A stretch of DNA of 64,000 bases from Pempheris klunzingeri (Eukaryota; Chordata; Actinopteri; Acropomatiformes; Pempheridae), in NCBI RefSeq assembly GCF_042242105.1, contig NC_092028.1, forward strand, positions 11,703,338 through 11,767,337, in the 5' to 3' direction. Of the stretch, positions 37,574-58,400 are shown piece by piece. The notes below the pieces were generated by a model that searched no databases, was not told where the DNA came from, and was given only the letters and a program-made list of their open reading frames with translations. The translations under genes and the position numbers were made by a program. Numbering within the stretch: position 1 is the stretch's first letter; every line of letters starts with the position of its first letter.

Positions 37574-37708
37574 GGAAGTGAAAGTACATGGATCGGTTTC
37601 ATTTTCCAAACGTCACCAGAAAACAGGAAAGGAAGAATTTGCAATGCAATGAGTCCCGCCTATTCTTAAATCTGCTCTATTGTGATTTCTGACCCACTTT
37701 CATTTCCT
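37574..37708 (+). promoter_or_regulatory. IRF / ETS-IRF motif cluster upstream of the Sp140-type gene
   Basis: Three motifs lie within 135 bp. GGAAGTGAAA at 37574-37583 fits the ETS-IRF composite GGAANNGAAA. GGTTTCATTTTCC at 37595-37607 (other strand GGAAAATGAAACC) contains the IRF element GAAANNGAAA. Around 37697-37708, on the other strand, GGAAATGAAAGT again fits GGAANNGAAA. They end about 80 bp before the start codon. Mammalian SP100, SP110 and SP140 are interferon-induced, so the placement makes biological sense. Transcription-factor use is inferred, not shown. Confidence 0.6.
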
Positions 37709-37785: not shown

Positions 37786-39170
37786 ATGGACCCGGTGGAT
37801 TTCCTGGAGCCTGAGGTGCTGCTGCAGTTTTTCCACTGTCATAAAACAGAAATGTCCTGCATGGAGAACCCGCTCACCTTCCTCAGGCAGCTCAGGGATC
37901 ACAACCTGATCCCGGAGAACAGATACAAGGTGAGGCGCTGACGTGGAAACGTTTTGCGTTTGTGGCGCACGGGCACCTCCTCACATGGCGCCCTGTTTGG
38001 ATTAAAATTGCGCGCGGGAACTGCATGACGAGTCATCCTCCCTAGAGATTTCATAATAGGCCAAATGTTCAGTGTCTGCAAAGTTTTACATGTATCCTCT
38101 AAGCTGCTGTAGAATAGTTTAACCATAAATGAGAAACAATGAACAGGGAAACTATTTAACAGCCCTGGGACACAGTTGTTTATGAACTGCACCATAAGCA
38201 CTACAGTATTGAAGTTAAAGTTACATAAAAGTCCACTTAAAAGTAGATTTTAACTCAGAGCTCCTTCATTTTTATAATTAAAGGGATAGTTCAGATTTTT
38301 TCTAGTGGGGTTTTGTGGGGCACCAGACTGCCATCGGCACACCACGGGTTTGCAGGATGGCAGGACACAGGCGCTGCTCTGTTGTCCACAGGATCAGCAG
38401 AAAAACATCAAGTCTGGGCTTTATTTTAGAATATTTCAGTAGCCCCTTTTCCACCAACATTCCCAGGAACTTTTATTACCAGGAATTTATTTACCTGGGT
38501 TAAAATAATACCTGGTAATCTGTGTGGTTTGCGTTTCCACCGCACCTCCAAGTTCCAGAACATATATTCAAATCAGGCTGATGATGTTTGAGGGGAGCGA
38601 CTGTTGTGGTCCTTCAGCTTCTCATAATCTTTATTTAAGTTTCTTCAACTTTTCACAAAGTCTGCCTGGACCTCGTCGTCCGTCCACGTCTCGTAGCTTC
38701 TCTTCCTTTGCTCCATTTTCCAAATGATCAAAACACAAACGAAGTGAAGCTCGTAGAAATGACATAAACAAGTTTGCAGCCACTCTGGTTTAAACATGGA
38801 GTGTGAACGGAAGTGCGGAACGCTGCAAGTGTGTTTCCACCAATCAGCGTTCTTCCGCACACAGCCCCGCCCCACAAATATTCCGGGTTATCAGAAAAGT
38901 ACCACCCCCCCACTAGGTACTTTTTTCAGGGAAAGTTCGGGGTTGAGGGAAAATTTTTTCCCCGGGTAATAACGGTGGAAACACGCCAAGGTTTTTCAAA
39001 ATCGCAGGTATGAATCTGTAAGTGGTTATCCTGTATCAATCAAGTGTAAGTGATTAAGCCAGAAGTGAGCCAGCGTGATGTATTTTTAAAAAAAAAAGAC
39101 AACCGTCCTTTTACAGATATCATTATTGAGCTGATGGCACGTGATAGATAGATGTCATCCAACCCTACTG

Positions 39171-39208
<38 letters not shown>

Positions 39209-42200
39209 AGGGTGAGTCGCATGAAGAGTAAAGACAACAAGCAGCAAGGTGTTTATGACATTTTGGACTGGTTGGAGACGGCGCGATCGAAGTACATCGA
39301 AGTGTTCTGGAGATGTGCCTTCAATGAGACCATCATGAGCCATTACCCCACCCTGCGACTGCTGCGCAACCGTCTCATGGACGGTTAGTCAGTGTTCTCT
39401 TTGCCTGTGATTCATGTTTTTACCCCGACAAATTAATAGAAAAAAAAAGAAAAGAACAGCACAACACAAACTGAAACATGCATATATACAGTCTTCACTT
39501 TTCACAGTGTCTCAGATTCCAAAAACTCCATTTGCAAGGTGTTTATTGGATAAACGGTTGAAATACTTTGCTACTGACAAAAAGTAAAACTGCCAAAAGA
39601 TGGATAAATGATCAATTCAAAATGTTACAGGGAGCCAGTGCAGGGCAGCTAAAACTGGACTAACTAAAGATCTAAGATATAATGGATCTAATGGACCAGT
39701 CCCACTTGACCTCTTGACAGTGATTTTATACTACCTTCCACATATCTTTAGCTAGCAACTGAACACAGAAAAAAATTAAAGCTATTACCTTCCTCTTTTT
39801 AGTAAATGTTTGATTTTGAAATGCCTAATAGCCAACAAACTTTTGTTACAAGAAAAGGCACATGCAAAATACAACTTTTTTTTTTTTACACAAAGTGGCC
39901 AGATAGACGTAAGCATGACATCACACAAAATGTATAATATCAATATGATGAAACAGCACCAACTTGTGGGACGACCAACCCCGTTCTCCCCTATTTACAA
40001 TACCCATCATTTAATTGCAGGGTCTTACCTTGTTGACGTGCAACTGCCTGAGAGGTTGGAAGAGACGGATGAGGGGAAAAGGAAGGAGCTTTCAGTGGAG
40101 GAGGAGGAGGAGGAGGGAGAGGAGAAGCAAGCAAACTCTGTGAAAAAGAAGAGAAAACGGAAAAGTAGGAGCTCGTGCGATGATGATGAGGAGGAGCAGG
40201 CCGGTCCATCGTCTCAGTTGACTCCAGCTCAAAGGAAAAGGTCAAAGAAAATACCCCTGTGTAAGTCACCTCCTTTAGTCGCCACCATCGGCTGTATAAA
40301 AGAAGCACATGCAGCTTGTGATGTGAAGCCAGTGCAGAAGTGCTTGAAACCTGCACTCCATTGGCTCCAAAAAGGAGTCCAATTGCATGAAAGTCTATGA
40401 GAAAAAGACCCTACTTCTCATTTGATTTATTCCCTCAGTAAACACTTTCCCAATGAGTTTCTGGTCTCAATAGCTCCTTCTAAGTCTTCTTCAATACAGC
40501 ATGATGTTCATTTTTGTAAGTGATGGTCCCATTTAGAGGAAAGTAGACCGTAAAGCAGGGTATGCTTTAGGGCGGGACTACCCTGTGACTAACCAATCAG
40601 AGGCGGTCTTCGTGGAATGATTTCTGGCTCCAAAAAAACCAAGATGGCGACGACCATGAAACCAAGATGGCTCTTAAAGCCAAACTTTAGGCTTCAAAAG
40701 CAGCAGTCCACAAACCACTGGATGACGTCACGGTGGCTACGTCCACTCCTCATATAGAATCTACGGTTGCCAACACCTTTGTTAACATGACTGAACAAGT
40801 CTACATTTTTTAAAACATTTTTTATTTCTCAGATTCTCCTCTGAAGAAAGGACAGAAGAGCAACATTTGGACCTGGCCCATCTACAAGATCCAGCTGCCT
40901 GTGACCTGTGCACAACAGGAGGGGACACTGAACAGAGACAGACTGGCCAAAGGTTGGGGTGGCTGAAGTGTCTGTTTAAGAATTACTATTATCATTGTCT
41001 GATCTAAAAAGGAAAAATAAGCCCACTGGAAATGGTGAATTAGTACCAGGCTTAGAGATCTCTAATCCGGTTTATTGATATTTGACAAATATATTTGATG
41101 ATTGACATTAACACCTTCCCAATCCTCAGGGCTGAAATGCATTGTGGTCGGGAAAACGTGGTTTACTCCCGCTGAATTTGAGAGGTTTTCTGGGAAGAAG
41201 AACTCTAGGAACTGGAAGCTAAGCATTCGATGTATGGGCACCTCCCTGGGAAAACTCATACAGGTTGGTTGAAAAAGCTTTTTTATTTTGCCACACACAC
41301 GGGACAAGACTGTGACTCATGAAAACCATTTCTTTTTCTGCGTTTTGAATATCACTGCAGGAAGGTCACCTGAAAGCAGTGCGTTACAAAGGGCGCAAAA
41401 AGGTGAGGCCAGAAACTGGTGAAAATGCATAATAAATATAAATAAATAAGTTCAGACTTTTGTAGTGTACCCTCTTCTTTTTAGTGATTTTGAGCCATCT
41501 CCTCCCTTTCTTTTCTTCTAGGCCAAGAAAACTCTGTTCACATCTAATCACACAAGCACAGGTATGTTGTATTCTATCTATCTATCTATGATGCAGCCTC
41601 TCAATTATATACACTGATGCCCATATAGTTGGAATAATTGTTCAATACCCCCAATTTTGTTAAAGCCTGAATACACAATTTGCAAAGGTTAATTGTGGTT
41701 TAAGTTTCACTGTGATATGTTTGGAAGAGTTTGATCAATAAAGTTGAGAAGATATACACTTTATTTATCAAGAATAAATCACATTGTCACAATCATTTCA
41801 TGAGAAGAGGTAAAAAACATTTTATTCCCACTTTATGGGCAACAGTGTATTAACATAATTATCTTGTTACATTATCTAATGTTGGAGAAAGGATTGATAT
41901 AAACAAGCAATGGAAAATGGCTCTTCACCTGCTTTTTTTAGTGTCTGAGGGAGGAGAAGAAGAAGAAGAAGAAGAAGAAGAAGAAGAAGAAGAGCAAGAA
42001 GAAGTAGATGAAGGTGAAGATGAGGGCTTCGACCAGCTTTCGTCAAGTAGCAAAGACAGTTCCACAGAGGGCACAGGTGCTGCTCTCTGCAAAGTCATAA
42101 TCAGGGTTAAAATGAATTAAATAAATTCTAACAACAATAAAAATTTTCATAGATCCCCGTATCAGTTATACCGTCAGTATGTGTCCATTACAGGTGATGA

Positions 42201-44751
42201 AGGAGAGACGGAGGAGCAGCAGACAGAAGCCAGCCATGGCGGCAGCAAGAAGGTGTTCAAAGTTACATGTGGAGACATCGCTGGGACCTTACATGAAAAA
42301 CGATTTGCATCGGGTAACTATATCTCTCTGGACTGTATATAAAGATGGATGTCTGATTTGTCGCTCTGGTTAACGGTGTGTACCGGCTGAAACCCAGCAG
42401 AGTGTATCTCCTCTAAACCTGTATTCACTGCCAGGGACTTCTGGGAAGTGCGTTCGTACTGAGACCAGCTGGATGACCCCAGTGGAGTTCCTGCAGGCCG
42501 CGTCATGTCCCGCTGATGCCAACTGGAGGAGAGACATCAAGTGGGATGGGAAACCACTCAGTGTTCTAACAGAGGTAACCGTAAAGTGTGCGTGAGTGCT
42601 GATAGCATTTTGAATTATTAACTATGCACAGAGAGAGAGAGAGAGAGAGAGAAATTACACTTTAAAGTTATGATTTGATTCCTGGTTGCTTTGGCAACAC
42701 TTGATTTGCATTAGCAGCTACTTAATGCAGCTCTGATATGGTTGTTATCAATGAAACGAACTTGCTCTCTCGATTACATGTGCACTAAATCTAGTGTGGG
42801 GATGGTGAACTCCACCATTACTAGTGACAGCTACTATACAGACAGATAGATTTTTGTCGTTCAGTCCTGCGAGAACTCATCAAGTCAAAGTCAAGTCAGA
42901 GAGTTAAATGTTCAAAAGTTAGACTTTCATTGACACTTTCACCAAATGTACCAAATACGTGCAGAAAGCATAATTCCCAAAAGTGGCAAGATGAAGTTAA
43001 AAGACAGAAGAAGACGAATCTTCAATTTGGTTCATGACAGCGGACTGCAAAAGGAAATCTACCACATCTTGGACTTAAATCAGCCTAAACTGACGCTTAA
43101 AAAACCAAAATGTGAGGTTATTTAATTCAGCATCGGATTCAGAAACATGTGACTAACGATGCAGTAAAAATGACAGTAACCGTAGCCCGGGAGGATATGA
43201 GAGCCTAAAATTAACAATTATTCATTTGTCAATTTGTCTATTTCAGGCAAACATCTTGAATTTCCACTCACTGCTGTGTGCTTGCAGACTGTGCAAACCA
43301 AATATTACAGAACTGGTAAGTTTGTTGATTGGCCGGTTTAGAAGCATCTCCTTATTCTACATTAATCATTGTTCTGCATTGACGCTGTGATGGTCGTGGT
43401 TACAGCATTTTACATGAAAAACACTGACTGTGGATCTTCTAGCAACAATATGCAACTATTTCGCCTTAAAATATGCTGCTGTGGGTTGCTGTCCTGCCTG
43501 GTGTTGATTCAAAGTCTGTTCCACTTGAACTATTTTTGCTCTTGTTAGAATAGTTCAGTATCCTTCGTAGCTCAGAAATGAACAGAATTAAATGTGGCAA
43601 TCACCTGTAATTACCCACTTGAGCCAATAGAGGCCGTCGTTGCCAAAGCAAATCAAAAGTTCCAAAGTCTTAGTACAAAACCTGTGTCTCACAAAGAGCT
43701 ACAACACAAGTCTGAGTGAAAACCTTTTTTCTCTCAGATGCAGCGTGTAATTGTATCGTGTATCGTGTGCAAACAAGTTGCTGTCATGTCTGTCTTGGCA
43801 GGACAATCAGAGAAATGACGATGAGTGCTGCATCTGTAAAAGTGAAGAAGAAGAGGAGGGAGACTTGGTGGAGTGCGATCAATGTCCTCGTTCCTTCCAC
43901 CAGAAATGTCACCTGCCTCATATAGAGGACATCATTTTAACGTGAGCTTTGACAACCAAGACACAAAAAAATGATTTTGTTGATTTCTCTTTTATGTGAT
44001 ATTATATGGTCGTCTTGTGTTTTTAGCTATTAGCATCTTGTTGAGGCTGAGAGAGAAAACTGCACTAATCAATGTTTCATATGAACAGTGGATCGTGCCA
44101 TGTGAGATTTGTTGTTTCTAGTGAAGAAACAGTAAATTATCATCCAACTCTGCAGTGCCCCTCGGCTCTAATGAACAATCTTTTAGCTCATTTCTTCAGT
44201 AACTTTCCTGTTTTGGTTCAGTCTCATGAATGTCATTATTAGCTGTTCTCAGAGAAAAGCTCTGATAAATCGATTGTTCACTGATAAACCTGCCAAGCAC
44301 CAAACTAAAGACAGACACAGTCAACAACTTGCTAGTAAGTCAGTGGTGGAGACCAAAAAAGAGCTCAGAGAGCGTTACATTTTACACAAATATTTACAGA
44401 AACATGACCCCAAATGAATGCTGATGCAAATGCCGTTAATCAAGGCTCAACCTCAGATATTTATTCTAGCTGCCTGATTTTTCTCTCTCTTTGCCTATTA
44501 ATAATGGAGGCAGCAGTAGCAACGCTGAACTCAGAAAGAAGCATCTTTTTCAATTCAACGTTTGTATAACTAACTGAATAAATTACAAACTATTCAAACT
44601 GAGTAGTTTCTTTGCTTTTTGAAGACACTTCGAGTTAATAAAATCTCCACCTAAATCATCATGTTACAATAGTCCTGTGTGTATCTGCATTTGCATTAAA
44701 CCCATATTCAAGATAATAGTTTGACTATATACATATATATGATATATATTC

Positions 44752-44806
<55 letters not shown>

Positions 44807-45607
44807 CAGGGACCATAGGCCATGGATGTGTACGTTCTGTGTATTCACAACCAATCAAGAGTTTTACCGGGACCAGGTGGAAAGGGAAGCAGCCACGTCC
44901 CATCAAATATCACAACGCATGCTGGTGAGCTCACCGACTGTCTCTCTGCCTTCAGGTCTGAACATGTTAATGCCCGTGACGTCTTTCTGTCACATTGCCA
45001 TCGTTCATCCCTCTTTTCTTACTTCAACAGCAATGCCAGTATCTCCTCCTGTCTCTGTGGAGTGCCGATGAGCAACAAACTTTTACGATGAACCCTTGCC
45101 TTTATGTAAGTGGTTTCTTTGCTATTCCAGCAGACATGTTTACTGTCCTCCTGTTCCTGAGAAATACTACCAATTATGTGTTTTATATCAATCAAAGGGC
45201 ACTTTATCATCTGGCTATTTGCTAATGGTAGTCTGCTTTGCACCCACAGTTGAAAGACTACTCCTCTGTGATCAAGACTCCCATGTGGCTGGGAAAGGTA
45301 ATAGACAAACTCCAGGAGCAACTCTACAAGACTGTCGGGGAGTTTGAGTCCGACATCCAGCTCATTTTCACCAACTGTGCTTCGTACAACCGGGTAAGAA
45401 ATGGCGTCATTAACCTCCAGATGTCACGCAGGGTGGTTTAACTAAAGGATTTCAAACGATTTTTTTTGTTTTATTACTATACATACTATCCTGACGAAGA
45501 TTGTTCTTGTTCTTTTACAGGGCAATGCTGAATTCCTCACCCTGGGCAACAGACTGAAGGAGCTGTTTGATGAGGAGTTTAAGAATGTGTTCAACATCTG
45601 TGAATAA
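37786..45607 (+). CDS. Sp140/Sp110-type nuclear body protein with two SAND domains
   Basis: Sixteen coding exons: 37786-37929, 39209-39383, 40021-40260, 40833-40952, 41130-41263, 41361-41402, 41522-41561, 41942-42076, 42194-42313, 42435-42574, 43247-43315, 43802-43941, 44810-44924, 45031-45105, 45250-45393 and 45521-45607 (about 639 residues). Domains in order: HSR/CARD (about 5-105), acidic stretch and lysine-rich nuclear signals (about 125-185), SAND 1 (about 205-285, NWKLSIRC core), poly-Glu (about 303-325), SAND 2 (about 358-450, NWRRDIKW), PHD finger (C462-C465, C478-C481, H486-C489, C507-C510; complete C4HC3) and bromodomain (about 540-639). This is the architecture of Sp100/Sp110/Sp140 chromatin readers of PML nuclear bodies, except that the human proteins have one SAND. 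The ATG at 37786 precedes MDPVDFLEPEVLLQFF; no upstream in-frame ATG is seen. Exact orthology to SP100, SP110 or SP140 is not resolvable here. Confidence 0.92.
38441..38987. mobile_element. Non-autonomous DNA transposon in Sp140-type intron 1
   Basis: The left end GCCCCTTTTCCACCAACATT and the right end, reverse-complemented, GGCGTGTTTCCACCGTTATT are imperfect inverted repeats. The interior holds matching motifs (TACCTGGTAAT and CCCCGGGTAATAA) but no transposase frame. No clear target duplication was found, so the superfamily (PIF/Harbinger or hAT) is left open. Confidence 0.55.
39173..39205. repeat. (GT)n tract abutting the exon 2 acceptor of the Sp140-type gene
   Basis: About 16 GT units lead directly into the GCAG acceptor (AG at 39207-39208), with no pyrimidine tract between. 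Confidence 0.9.
40286..40765. mobile_element. Reverse-oriented, diverged copy of the CATAGACTGTATA MITE
   Basis: The left end CATCGGCTGTATAAAAGAAG and the right end, reverse-complemented, CGTAGATTCTATATGAGGAG match the ends of 10517-10979. Internal blocks (GATGACGTCACGGTGGCTAC, CCAAGATGGCGAC) are shared in reverse order. Flanking GTCGCCAC and GTTGCCAA are a 6/8 match, consistent with an aged 8-bp duplication. It lies in intron 3 of the Sp140-type gene and has no coding capacity. Confidence 0.75.
41953..41993 (+). repeat. (GAA)n coding microsatellite
   Basis: A GAA triplet run inside exon 8 of the Sp140-type gene encodes an uninterrupted run of about a dozen Glu between the two SAND domains. 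Length changes would stay in frame. Confidence 0.9.
44752..44805. repeat. (GT)n tract abutting the exon 13 acceptor of the Sp140-type gene
   Basis: About 26 GT units run to within a few bases of the acceptor (GAGCAG, AG at 44808-44809) of the exon that carries the last two PHD cysteines. Confidence 0.95.
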
Positions 45608-46947: not shown

Positions 46948-49900
46948 ATGGAGGGAGATCAGCGAGAGGGCAGCGGCGGCGACGTCGTAGCGATGCACGT
47001 GAAGACCGAAGCGGTGGATGAGAATTCATCTGCGCTGGTTTTGGGCAGCCAGGAGTCGCCTGCGCCCTGCGGAGATACCGCATGCAGGGGAGGAGGAGGA
47101 GTGGATCACACTGCAGAGGAGCTGGCTGACACAGAGCTGCAAGCAGCCACCACAACTACTCCTGTTCTGCTGTGTGCGTTGAAAAGATTCCTATTAACAT
47201 GTCAAGTGACTTTTTTTCCCCCCCTCTATACTGCAAAACTAAAAGAAGAATGTCACATTTGGGTCATTTCCACCTTTAAATTACGGCTATAAATCTGTTG
47301 CTCATTCACGATGACATAAATGTGTCTTTTTATCTTTCTCGCCATTAGATCCTGTGAGCACAGAACGCTTCTTCACCACATCAGGGGATGGAAAAACTTA
47401 CCTGAAGATAGCTCCAGGTGAGCACTCGCAAACACTCCCATCAGCAGAATGAAATAAAACGCACACTCCCTGCACCGTGCACGGAGATTGAAGTCTTTTG
47501 TGTAAGAAATTAAGAACTTGCTTAACCTCCCACAGTTTTTAGTGCAATACTATGAATACAAATGGATACAATGCATACAAATAAAGTTCTGTGGCAGTGA
47601 AAACTTTATTTAACTAATTAAATCTCAGGCTCTTAGAGGAGAGTTTCTCAACCTTTTCTGACTCATGATTCCGTACTTTAGTATCCAAAATGTTATGTAG
47701 TTCATGAATAGATTTTACATTCAAATGATGCTTCCTGTCTATTTCATATTTAAGTCATATTAAAGTCCCTTAAAGTAAACTTGGGGTCAATATGCGACAT
47801 CAAAGTTAAAAATGATCCATCTGATATTTTGATGTTCAAAAACTCATCAGGATCGCATGGGTTGGGTTGGGTTGTCTGACCAGATTTGACTGACACTCAT
47901 CAAACAACCCAACAACCATCTGTTGATGACTCTGATCCAGTCGTTGCTAAATCCTGATTGATGCTCGAGAACCGCAAACCAGCAAAAAATGCACAGAGAA
48001 AACCTGAAATCTCCTGAAACAACCATGAGCAGAAAAAGGTGTCCCTGTAGGACCCCATCGCTTAACGTAAGAAACGTTTGTTGGCAAAATGCTCTATCAG
48101 GGTCTTTAAATCGCCCCATGTCCTCCCCCAGCCTCAGCGATGCCACCTGCTCCTTCAGAGAAGACGCTTCCCTCTGGTTCAGATTTCTCCTCCAAAGCTG
48201 TTCTGTGTCTAATCGAGGCCGTCGGGCGCCGCTGGGGCCTGTATGAGACCCGGGAACGTTCGCAGCTCTTCCAGAGCGTCCAGGAGGAGATGGCCTCCAA
48301 GGGGCACGTGCTTCCTGTCGAAAAGATCCGCCGCAAATGGAACAACCTCATCGTCACATACAAGAGGGTCAAAGACCGCAGCCGGGAGACGGGACACGCC
48401 AAGACGTCCTGGGAGTTCTTCGATGTAAGTCTGATAGTAGAAGTGTTTCTTCCTTGCACTCCGTTTCTCTCAGGGTTTGGATGAAGTACAAAAACATCTT
48501 TAAACATCACACAACTCGTATGTTTTATAAAGAATCTTTGGGGATAATTTGGAACTCCAACACTGAACCATGCTGACCTATTATGATTGCTGTGCAAGCA
48601 CTTGCTTTTTCATTAGATTTGTAAGGAAGGTCATGAGTCAGAATTTACCTCCCACTGCACGACTGTTGCTGCTCCCTGTTCAAGTCACCCAAGTATCATA
48701 GACATTAATGAGCATAAATAAATATATGCAGACTGTATTTACAGTTCTTGAAACGTGTGAATATGTCTCTGAGCTTTGCCAGGCATATTTCACCTGAAAG
48801 ACAAGTATGAAATGACAAATGACAAAAAGTTTTCTAAATCATGCCCTCGAACAGCAATCGTCCAATCATAGCTGAGAAACCAAGATAAGAGGAGGCCTGT
48901 CGAGCTGTGGATTTCTCCCTATGTTGGAGCACTGTGCGCAGTGCTGTAGTAAGAGTGATATTTGGCATCCAAGGAGTTTGGAGGGTAGTGTATATTTTCA
49001 GCCTTTACATAGTCCCAACTACATCCACTACTGTGCAAAAGTTTTAGGCAGGTGTGGAGAAATGTCACCCCACTTCCTGTGTTTTCATGCATATTTGAGT
49101 CACTTGGCCGCGTTTCCACGTCAGAGGTTTGGATTTTTGGCTGTAGTTCTTCCATTAATCTGGCCAGACTTCTCCTGACAGTAGATGGGTGTACTTGGGT
49201 CCCACTGGTTTCTGCCAGTTCTGAGCTGATGGCACTGCTGGACATTTTCCAATTTCGAAGGGAAGTAAACATAAAGCGTCTTTCATCTGCTGCATTTTGG
49301 CCGACCTCGAACAGCACATCTTGAAACCCCAGTCTGCTTTGAAGTCTTTGCCTGGGAGAGACCTTGCTGATGTAATATAACTACCTTTTATTGCTGTGCT
49401 CAGTCTTGTCATGATGATCTGTGACATGAAACTGTCTTCCACAACCTCACCTTGGTAGCAGAGTTTGGCTGTTCCTCACGCAGTTTTAAGCCTCCTACAG
49501 CTGTTTCTGGTTCAGTTAGTGACAACCTTCACATGAAATCAATGATCATTGGTACAACTTGTTAATCATACACCTAACTATGATCCTACAAAATTTTTAT
49601 AAGTGGAGGAGGAAGAAAGAACCTGGGATTTTTCTTCATGTCATGGGTTACAGTGCTATTCAAAGATTTATAGAACTAGGGTGTACGGCGCGTGCTTCTG
49701 TGGAAGAAAAATGTATTGTAATTTCAAATGAGTATAGTTGTTTTTTGTTTGCATTTGCATCTGAAGCACTGCTACAGCAGATAGAACTGACTGTTGTGCA
49801 ATATGGCTCAATACAGAAAGCCCAGCCAGTCAATAGCAGTAAGCAACAGAAGCGTATGGAGCTTATTGTTTGAATGGACTGTTGTATCATGTGAATGGGT

Positions 49901-53050: not shown

Positions 53051-53612
53051 TAGTGTATTAACCTGCAGAGGAAGGGGACGTGTTTGAATCGGACGAGAGC
53101 CACTAAACATTGTGAAAAGGAGGTTGGGACAATTAAGGATGTGCCTGTCGCTGTGATTGACACATCTGGCCTCTTTGAAACAGACTGCGAAAAGGAGGAA
53201 ATAGTGCGAAAGATCCGGAGGCGCGTGAAACTCCAAGAACCAGGACCTCACACCTTTGAGCTCGTGATCCCTGTGGGAAGGATGACCCAGGAAGACACCA
53301 ACATGCAGACTGCAGCAAAGTTTGGCCTGAAGGTGTGGGGGGGGGACGATGCTGTTCATCCATGGGGATCGCTTGGAGGGAAAAACGATAAACGATGTCA
53401 TCACCGAGAGTGATGCCAACCTCCACAACTCCCAACACAGGTGTGGCGGTGGCTTCCACGTCTTCGGCAACATGAACACACAGGACCGGGAACAGGTGAC
53501 CGCTTCATAAGCAAAGATTCAGACTCTGGTGGCCTTGAACGGAGGGGGCCATTACCACGGTGACCTGGATCCCAAGGAGGAGAGGAAGATCAGGAAAACA
53601 CAGGAAGATTAA
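53051..53612 (+). pseudogene. GIMAP/AIG1-type GTPase pseudogene fragment
   Basis: The + frame from about 53054 reads VPVAVIDTSGLFET (G3 region), PGPHTFELVIPVGRMTQED and AKFGL, characteristic of GIMAP (AIG1-type) immune GTPases. After a run of nine Gs (53336-53344) the continuation (GDRLEGKTINDVI, RCGGGFHVFGNMNTQDREQV, LVALNGGGHYHGD) is in another frame, so a frameshift lies in or near the G run. A TAA also interrupts it at about 53508, before the natural-looking end at 53610-53612. The P-loop (G1) part is missing upstream. It appears dead and 5'-truncated. Identification of the family is firm, of the member not. Confidence 0.85.
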
Positions 53613-55483: not shown

Positions 55484-58400
55484 ATGGAGAGGAAAAGAAT
55501 CCGGTTAAGGCGCATTTCCAGTGAAGGAGAAGAAGATGAGGACAGGAGAATAAGCAGCAGGAGCAGAAAGAGAGTCAGATATATGGAAGACGAAGAAGAA
55601 GATGAGAGCAACGAGGAAGATGACGAAGAGGAAGACGACGATCAGCCGGGCCTGTCGATGCAGACCGGCCACGACCAGAGAACGCAAGGCAACAGTGAGT
55701 TTTTAGAGGCGGGTCATGCATTGAGCATCTGTTTCTCTTTTTTTAAAATGTGTGTTTTTGACAGCATGTTCCCCAACGAAGTACTGCACTGAATTCTCTA
55801 CAGATCATTGTCTTACGATCACAATCACAGTATTCTCTTGTGAAGTACTGGTAACTGGTACTGATGTGTGCAGTCATTAATATGCAAAATCTAGGACTCC
55901 TACCTGTAACATGTGGAAGCAAAACGGGCATTCTGGATGTAGAGAAGCTGGACAGGGGTAAGCAGAAACTGATTCTTATTCAGTTGACTTCATCATTCAT
56001 AAAGAAGTATATTATTCCCTTAATCTTCTCTTTTTTGTTTCTTTGCTGCTGCATGGGGCCGCTCTGTTTAGGGGAGGAGTGCATCATGTGTGAGGACCAC
56101 TGGTTCACCCCCCCTACCTTTGAGGACTTGGGCGGAAAGGGTTGCAGCAAAAAATGGAAAACAAGTATTTTCTATGAAAATAAGCCTCTGCAGTTTTGGT
56201 TTGAGGTAAGATTTTAATAATTCTGCACAGTGCACTTGTCTTTACCCAAGAAACACAATGAGCAAGAACTAAAACTAAATAAACTGGCTAACTTCTCACA
56301 GCAAGGTTCCTTAACCACTACGGGGTATAAAAGGAGAGGAAACGAGTCCACAAAGGTAACTGAACATCAGAATACGATGTGATATTGGTTTTGTCGAGCA
56401 AATTCATGCAATTGTTTTCTTTATTCTCCCAGAAAAAGAAAGTCCCGTCATCAAATTGCACATCAGAAGGTTTGTCTGCATTTTCTTATTGATGTAACTG
56501 AAGCCCGAATTAAAACAGCAACAATAAGCAGAGTGCATGCCGAAACCATGTCATTTATTTAATGTTTATTCAATGTCTAGACCTAGAAAATAGTAATTAA
56601 CGACTACTCTACTCTACTAAAGTATATGTGCTATTTTATTCATTAGAGTCAGACATACAGTTGGCAGAAGAAACTGAGGAAGATGATGTTAAAGATGAAG
56701 ACTGGCTTCCAGGCAGTGAAAAATTGGTACTGGGGAAAGAGGAGGGAGAGGAAGAAAGGGCGGGGGCTGGAAGTAGAGGAGAGGTTGTGGACTCTGGGAG
56801 TAAAGAAGAGGAAGATGAAATAGAAAAGTGGGAAACGGAGGATGAGGATATTCCTGCTGTTGCCGATAACGACAAAGACCGCGGTGTCTTTGAAGGTGAC
56901 GTTTCCTGCAGGAACCATCATCTGTATAGAAATACTATCGCTGGAACGATTGTTAGCACGTGAGCTACTAGGCATCTCTTCATGGGAGGATGAATGTCAG
57001 TCTTCCTCTTTCAGAAAGGGAGCCAAAGTTGACAGTTTCAGCGCTCAAGAAAAGAGTATTGCAGAACGAAGTGAAAGTCCTCATCAAAAGGCTTCCACAG
57101 GTAAGATGGAGAGAAACTGTGGAAACATTTTTACACGTCATAGCATTTAAAGCACAGGTGTATTTATTATTATAGCTGCTTTCTACTGAGGGAGACTTTT
57201 TAAAGGCACTGAGCTATCTCTAATGTTATTTATTAATTCCTCCTGTGCTTTTCATACCATGACAAGTCACAATGTCTGTTGTGAAAAATGAATTCACGTG
57301 GTTGACAATTCACGCCACCCATTTGAAATATGCTTTGTATTCTGTAAAGTTCATTAACTCAGTCTCGAACCAAAAACATTTCAAATATGTGAGCGTGCAG
57401 AGACGGCTGTTAGCAGGACTAGTTTATGTAGTGCTCCTTTTTCTCTGCCTTACAATTTAAGATTTAATTGTCGGCTCATTTGTATGATGAGAGGCAGGGG
57501 TACACCCTGGAGTGGTCACTAGTCAATCACAGGGCCAACAAATAGAGACAGACAACCATTCATGCTCACATTCAAACATACAGGCAATTTAGAGTCACCA
57601 GTTAACCCTAAATGTCCGGAGTAGCCGGCAAGCACGGGGAAAACACCTATCTCATCAGCAAGCCTCAGCTAGCCGGAATACAGTTTGGTTTTTCAACTCT
57701 GTTTTATAGTGTTGTGGAAAGATGAGAGGTTGTTGAAGGATCATGGAGGCCGACACAGAGACACACGGGAGACCCAGATGGCTCACGTTGTAGTAATGTT
57801 TACTGATGATCAGGAGAAGTGACACCAGCAGAGCAGCAGTTCATGCAAGCAGTGCCAACATCAATTCCTAATTCCCATTAGGTATACGTATATTGTCCAG
57901 ATTACAGACCAATACGGAGACAGCTAGTCTCAATAGACAGAACTCAACCTTGACTAGCACAGAGAGCTCTAGCATATCTTGCAGTGTCTGTCTGTCGGAA
58001 AGCCATCTTAGGGCAAGATAAGGCCTTAACGTGGAGACAGGACTCAGACCTGTGGAGGTTAAAGTGACCTACTCTAACCTAGAGCATAATTTAGGGTGAA
58101 AGGGGAAATTTTCCCTCACATATAGTTCTACTTACATTTTCCATGTGTTTTTTTTCCCTCAAAAAATGATATGATGATATCATAAATTTCTGTGGTAAGA
58201 TGCAATGCCAAAAAGTCAGACTCTTAACTAATAATAATAAATAATAATAATAAAAAATAATGATCATATTGTATGTCAGTTGCACACCAACCTTTTATTT
58301 TCAACCTGGGATTTTGGGATTGTTGTTTTTTTTTCATATATTTTTCCAATTTCATCCATTATTCATAATAATTACTGGCAAATTCTTGGTGTTTTTAAAA

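Follow-up and report, generated by a model that had tools for sequence, protein, structure and literature searches.

The 64,000-nucleotide (nt) stretch of the Pempheris klunzingeri genome analyzed here (contig NC_092028.1, positions 11,703,338 to 11,767,337; hereafter the window) harbors a gene of the SP100/SP140 family, referred to as the SP gene, whose product carries two different SAND domains, SAND1 and SAND2, in a single reading frame. The predicted protein has the layout HSR, basic run resembling a nuclear localization signal (NLS), SAND1, acidic linker, SAND2, PHD finger and bromodomain, and is encoded on the forward strand at 37786..45607 by 16 coding exons comprising 639 codons and a single stop. 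That this well-formed SP gene with two SAND domains is real, far beyond chance, is confirmed by our analysis. The initial annotation of this DNA had proposed two different SAND domains in tandem in an Sp140-type protein, and the proposal holds, since each domain passes Pfam separately and a PHD finger and a bromodomain follow downstream.

To derive the gene model, candidate AG and GT sites were collected around every open stretch, and phase-compatible paths were retained. In the chosen model, 15 of 15 introns are of the GT-AG type and the frame is open up to the single stop; the frame continuity claimed for the exon chain is thus borne out for exons 4–11, and the limits that the initial annotation had given for the tandem, 40833 and 43315, coincide exactly with the first base of exon 4 and the last base of exon 11. 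Open frames result from 576 splice-site combinations, none of which loses a SAND domain; within exons 4–11, the boundaries move by 4 or 6 nt at exons 4, 5, 6, 7 and 10, and exons 8, 9 and 11 are constant in all combinations. The only methionine codons within residues 105–506 are M262 in SAND1 and M397 in SAND2, so that no separate start codon precedes the SAND2 half, and we infer that one mRNA carries both domains. Separate genes for SAND1 and SAND2 were provisionally rejected as the simplest reading, there being no methionine between M262 and M397, and exons 7–9 being open. The exons that flank the SAND region are located at 37786-37929, 39209-39383 and 40021-40260 (exons 1–3), at 43802-43941, 44810-44924 and 45031-45105 (exons 12–14), and at 45250-45393 and 45521-45607 (exons 15–16).

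A domain search of the predicted protein had been suggested as a check on the tandem, and Pfam reports two SAND stretches in the 639 residues; the HSR, both SANDs, the PHD finger and the bromodomain all pass the Pfam cut-offs. The HSR/CARD domain is encoded by exons 1–2 (37813..39376, residues 10–104; PF03172, E 2.7e-19), the PHD finger at 43826..44840 (residues 462–510; PF00628, E 3.6e-08) and the bromodomain at 45250..45532 (residues 564–615 by Pfam; PF00439, E 3.6e-13). When the SAND segments were searched separately with PF01342, the Pfam SAND family with a cut-off of 22 bits, SAND1 scored 79.6 bits (E 1.4e-22) and SAND2 86.8 bits (E 7.9e-25). Compared with solved structures, both rank SP100-B (PDB code 1h5p) first and SP140 (PDB code 8j70) second, at 2.6e-14 and 5.4e-14 for SAND1, and at 6.2e-13 and 1.7e-10 for SAND2. 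For the PHD-bromodomain part, human SP100 is the top match among the best 60 of 375 PDB matches (1.1e-26), the top five sequences are all SP100 or SP140 (1.1e-26 to 3.9e-24), and TRIM24 comes next (3.9e-20). Three distinct segments of the chain, SAND1, SAND2 and the PHD-bromodomain part, thus have SP100/SP140 as their best solved matches, which, together with the HSR, assigns the protein to this family.

The features that characterize SP100/SP140 proteins, i.e., an N-terminal HSR/CARD domain, a SAND domain, and an SP-type PHD finger followed by a bromodomain, are all present. The departure lies in the number of SANDs, two in frame, as opposed to the one that is described for mammalian members. 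That relatives carry one SAND had also been stated at the outset, in agreement with passages of two papers in which SP100-family members are described with 'a SAND domain' (PMC5021326, PMC4548144). The gene is kept in the SP100/SP140 family as a variant, the single SAND being a description of the mammalian proteins and not a family rule. The PHD finger itself differs from that of human SP100 by an acidic insert, EEEEE, at 43844-43858, and by four extra residues before the PWMC motif.

All exons of the two SANDs lie on the forward strand. Exon 4 (40833..40952, 120 nt, phase 1-1; an end 6 nt later is also open) encodes the first half of SAND1, exon 5 (41130..41263, 134 nt, phase 1-0) the second half with the motif RNWK, and exon 6 (41361..41402, 42 nt, phase 0-0) a basic tail without cysteine, EGHLKAVRYKGRKK. 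Exon 5 lacks two residues that are present in SAND2, SP100 and DEAF1. Most of the linker is encoded by exons 7–8 (41522..42076, i.e., 41522-41561 and 41942-42076), and its long acidic run, with 30 aspartate or glutamate residues in 75 (residues 287–361), extends into exon 9. The end of the linker and the first half of SAND2 are encoded by exon 9 (42194..42313, 120 nt, phase 1-1), which equals exon 4 in size and phase; the second half, where ANWR replaces KDWK, by exon 10 (42435..42574, 140 nt, phase 1-0), which equals the corresponding DEAF1 exon; and the tail, ANILNFHSLLCACRLC, by exon 11 (43247..43315, 69 nt, phase 0-0), with a zinc-motif-like H-x3-C-x-C-x2-C pattern. The sequences NWKLSIRC in SAND1 and NWRRDIKW in SAND2 are encoded at 41210-41233 and 42521-42544, respectively. 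The cores are only 34% identical, which rules out a recent tandem duplication and agrees with the strong divergence noted originally.

A comparison of 12 SAND domains separates SAND2 from the others in the region corresponding to KDWK. The first position of this motif is basic in all of them except SAND2 (ANWR), and the net charge of the helix in this region is 0 in SAND2, +3 in SAND1, and between +2 and +4 in the remaining 10. For the entire core, the net charge is +7 in SAND1, +2 in SAND2, +6 in SP100, +8 in SP140 and +10 in DEAF1. Between the SAND2 tail ANILNFHSLLCACRLC and the tail of DEAF1, ERILNPHAASCTCAAC, 7 of 16 positions are identical, including the histidine and three cysteines; when the SAND2 tail was shuffled 200000 times, this match was attained 304 times. 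A related H-x3-C-x3-C tail occurs in three GMEB-like genes of the same genome; the tails of SAND1, of the SP140 chain and of SAND3, the SAND domain of a separate gene downstream in the window, are cysteine-free, and the SP100-B and 1ufn segments end before the tail and are not counted in this comparison. By motif and exon phase, SAND2 alone qualifies as a DEAF1-type SAND with a zinc-motif tail, i.e., a putative zinc site.

Based on these features, we lean towards a chromatin protein of the type HSR – SAND – SAND – PHD – bromodomain in which SAND1 is the DNA reader and SAND2 serves chiefly in SAND-SAND contact. The HSR would multimerize the protein, and SAND1, with its basic, near-canonical KDWK helix and its basic, cysteine-free tail, would act as an SP-type DNA reader that picks CpG-type sites. 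SAND2, with a DEAF1-type zinc tail kept and a weakened KDWK patch, would stabilize or space the assembly through contacts with itself, or with SP or DEAF1-like proteins as partners, and would contact DNA with low affinity at most; the PHD-bromodomain part next to SAND2 would read histones. We infer these roles in DNA binding, zinc binding and interaction from motifs, guided by work on DEAF1, whose KDWK patch binds TTCG motifs and whose NLS and zinc motif act in DEAF1–DEAF1 interaction (PMC3307728). Two mechanisms had been offered for the tandem, recognition of two DNA sites and conversion of one SAND to a protein-interaction module; the latter fits better, given that SAND2 lacks the first KDWK lysine and has a neutral helix and a DEAF1-like tail, and the former fits less well.

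Several observations weigh against this assignment of roles and against a simple account of the two domains. SAND2 retains the tryptophan and two arginines in its helix, and the zinc finger adjoining the DEAF1 SAND is required for DNA interaction too, according to PMC4274154; SAND2 may therefore bind DNA. SAND3 has a KKWK motif, yet its core charge, -2, is the lowest of the 12, so that core charge alone is a poor guide and a low value is not peculiar to SAND2. The core of SAND2 points to SP100 (42% identity; SP140, 38%; DEAF1, SAND1 and one GMEB-like gene, 34% each) and its tail to DEAF1, such that core and tail appear to tell different stories; the SAND1 core (SP100, 48%) is nearly equidistant from SP140 (45%) and DEAF1 (44%). 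Trees built from 74 columns of the 12 SANDs disagree in topology between LG+C20 and LG+G4, and the GMEB branch alone is starred in each. In LG+G4, SAND1 and SAND3 fall on the same side as the three mammalian SP SANDs (57/72), a grouping absent from LG+C20, and SAND2 falls with DEAF1 (47/31). The placement of SAND1 and SAND2 is poorly supported throughout, and none of four constrained clades is rejected (SAND1 with SAND2, p = 0.238; SAND1 with SAND3, p = 0.288; all SP SANDs with SAND1–3, p = 0.437; SAND2 with mammalian SPs, p = 0.221). Finally, the existence of in-frame exon skips means that SAND1-only, SAND2-only and hybrid proteins are reachable by splicing.

The two SANDs are best read as two old, specialized copies of an SP/DEAF1-type exon cassette. 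Intron positions and phases are common to SAND1, SAND2, SAND3 and the DEAF1 gene of the same genome, with exons of 120 (1-1), 134 (1-0) and 42 nt (0-0) for SAND1, 120 (1-1), 140 (1-0) and 69 nt (0-0) for SAND2, 140 (1-0) and 66 nt (0-0) for DEAF1, and 134 (1-0) and 54 nt (0-0) for SAND3. These shared positions and phases look like common inheritance of the SP and DEAF1 SANDs, and are in themselves no proof of duplication inside the SP gene. A capture by exon shuffling, of SAND2 from a DEAF1-type gene or of SAND1 from the neighboring SAND3 gene, is a tentative alternative that would be compatible with any of the mechanisms. It would account for the Cys/His-tail exon and the 140-nt exon common to SAND2 and DEAF1, and for the two-residue deletion, seen in the alignment, and the 134-nt exon that SAND1 shares with SAND3 some 15 kb away; moreover, exons 4–7 (the SAND1 cassette, 336 nt) are phase-symmetric, 1-1, and could be cleanly gained or lost as a unit, and exons 9–11 of SAND2 run from phase 1 to 0. 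The capture account is opposed by the SAND2 core, which is nearer SP100 than DEAF1, and is not settled by the tree.

The distribution of the tail bears on the age of the two copies. Because the Cys/His tail is also found in the three GMEB-like genes, it looks ancestral, and as it is common to DEAF1, the GMEB-like genes and SAND2, its loss in SAND1, SAND3 and SP140 is simpler than a gain in SAND2. This leaves room for an old two-SAND form from which mammals lost the zinc SAND. It is conceivable, if somewhat doubtful, that such a form was ancestral for the speckled proteins of jawed vertebrates, its SP-type SAND binding DNA and its DEAF1-type SAND with a zinc tail serving assembly, and that mammalian SP100/110/140, on which the current picture of the family is based, are reduced descendants without the latter.

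Returning to mechanism, the reading of SAND2 as chiefly a contact module has to be weighed against one with two DNA readers in one chain, which we regard as unlikely. Both SANDs would then bind CpG half-sites, and a monomer would read double sites of variable spacing, a task for which DEAF1 and GMEB may rely on oligomers. The DNA preferences fit, pairs of CpG half-sites being favored by DEAF1 with a spacing of 6–11 nt and by GMEB1/2 with a spacing of 4–11 nt (PMC4274154), and SAND2 retains the tryptophan and the arginine of the motif in its ANWR and has a full SAND score. The missing first KDWK lysine and the neutral helix region of SAND2 speak against such a role, and the highly acidic linker of about 75 residues permits spacing but does not fix it.

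Less probable still are alternative isoforms with one SAND per mature protein. Among skips from exon 4 to exon 12, those of exons 4–7 (336 nt), 4–8, 5–9, 6–11 and 7–11 are in frame, as are single skips of exons 4, 6, 8, 9 and 11; exons 9–11 jointly are out of frame. Skipping 7–11 would give a SAND1-only protein like mammalian SP140, skipping 4–7 or 4–8 a SAND2-only protein, and skipping 5–9 a hybrid; owing to the intron phases common to both cassettes, each of these skips is in frame. If intron 7 were read through, translation would stop early and give an HSR-SAND1 protein, and this intron contains two AATAAA; introns 6, 8 and 12 also contain two each, so that those in intron 7 are no evidence of an early end. 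With GT-AG at all splice sites and the full chain open, the DNA demands no skipping. The early in-frame stop of intron 7 (41562-41941) means that a short HSR-SAND1 protein resembling mouse Ipr1 could arise.

How SP proteins, a group of chromatin readers linked to interferon, recognize DNA is as yet poorly understood, and the two SANDs suggest a division of labor absent in single-SAND relatives. If this is true, DNA and zinc-tail functions that are mixed in DEAF1 would be separable within one natural protein, and the Cys/His-tail exon before the PHD finger would offer a marker for tracing how the SP family arose from ancestors resembling DEAF1 or AIRE. Should the layout be common to fishes, it would be a descriptive fact of moderate weight, though still one absent from the papers listed in the literature searches.

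A search of the 646 Mb genome with PF01342 returned 11 matched places (18 candidates) at E up to 0.001, which correspond to seven genes: the SP gene, SAND3, DEAF1 (C5), three GMEB-like genes (C8, C16 and C11:25.7 Mb; 82–87% core identity to human GMEB1) and a gene at C11:10.26 Mb. We take the C5 gene to be DEAF1 from sequence resemblance, and the gene at C11:10.26 Mb is presumably SAMD11-like. Of these seven, the SP gene alone shows two SANDs. With a custom SAND profile, nine hits (one below the HMMER inclusion threshold) were obtained in the 9.9-kb surroundings of the five loci that lie outside the window, and they amount to a single SAND at each locus, either complete or split into halves; hence, no second two-SAND SP gene was found genome-wide by PF01342 and the profile search of outside loci. 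A weak SAND match at C17:18693872 (E 0.297), with neither a profile SAND hit nor a tblastn hit, was dismissed as chance. The HSR search of the genome yielded four places in two genes, the SP gene and one at C15:8.85 Mb. A piece of the latter joined by eye (C15:8847539-8847983) contains HSR and PHD and no Pfam SAND, although exons may be missing; the gene looks like AIRE, its SAND either lost or diverged beyond recognition. The SAND and HSR searches of the genome revealed no SP100/SP140 member other than the SP gene. Prokaryote and virus collections gave 62 and 4 pattern matches, respectively, and no relatives, as expected for those collections.

The single-SAND gene SAND3 (55484..56355, forward strand) is located about 10 kb downstream of the SP gene, its 134-nt exon (1-0) followed by the cysteine-free 54-nt tail exon (0-0). 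A piece joined by eye gives a Pfam SAND match of 8.6e-21, and the N-terminus of the protein is basic, then acidic (MERKRIRLRR...). When the whole SP protein was compared by tblastn with 9.9 kb around SAND3, the SAND of the latter alone matched. Between the two genes lie a gene with a Myb/SANT-like DNA-binding exon (48110-48484; Pfam Myb_DNA-bind_4, 3.5e-12) and a fragment of an AIG1/GIMAP-type GTPase (53054-53410; Pfam AIG1, 3.5e-14). An open stretch on the reverse strand (48919-49380) presumably belongs with transposases of the Tc1/mariner type, which it resembles; Pfam gave 0 hits on a 56-residue piece of the overlapping reverse-strand frame 49155-49475, the 48919-49380 frame itself not being scanned.

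Upstream of the SP gene, 180 bp from the ATG, is a candidate interferon-response element, GAAAATGAAAC, on the reverse strand (37596..37606). It is the sole GAAANNGAAAC in the window, where 0.90 are expected by chance, so that position alone is suggestive. Turbot sp100.1, which may be an orthologue, is listed in PMC12263217 among genes that rise in vitro in response to poly I:C and fall in response to Vibrio. SP genes are variably present or lost in teleosts, and sp100.1 is named in tilapia, according to PMC9454494, in the main text of which the word SAND is absent. No paper on a two-SAND SP protein was among those listed in the literature searches, a weak negative since other senses of the word 'sand' dominated some of them, and the layout may already be present in protein databases.

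Compared with known systems, the fish protein shares with SP100, SP110, SP140 and SP140L the HSR, the basic NLS-like run, SAND, PHD and bromodomain in the same order, and differs by having two SANDs where these have one; the human SP140 SAND used in the comparison lacks the DEAF1-like Cys/His tail found in SAND2. AIRE, which is not known to have a bromodomain, is similar in its HSR and PHD, both of which occur in the AIRE-like gene of the same genome. It differs in having two PHD fingers (PMC8773594), as opposed to one PHD finger and a bromodomain in the SP protein. Mouse Ipr1, the Sp110 homologue, has the HSR/Sp100-like domain and an SP-type SAND, however, the latter is described as single and C-terminal (PMC5021326). 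GMEB1/2 share the SAND fold and the Cys/His tail, but their cores are just 26–34% identical to SAND1 and SAND2, and the open frames of the GMEB-like genes, whose exons were not precisely spliced, break after MLR and near KC(V), unlike the introns of SAND1 and SAND2. DEAF1 combines its SAND with a MYND domain (PMC3555993), whereas MYND is not among the 14 Pfam families listed for the SP protein at E up to 1; the two are alike in the intron positions and phases of the SAND and, for SAND2, in the H-x3-C-x-C-x2-C tail.

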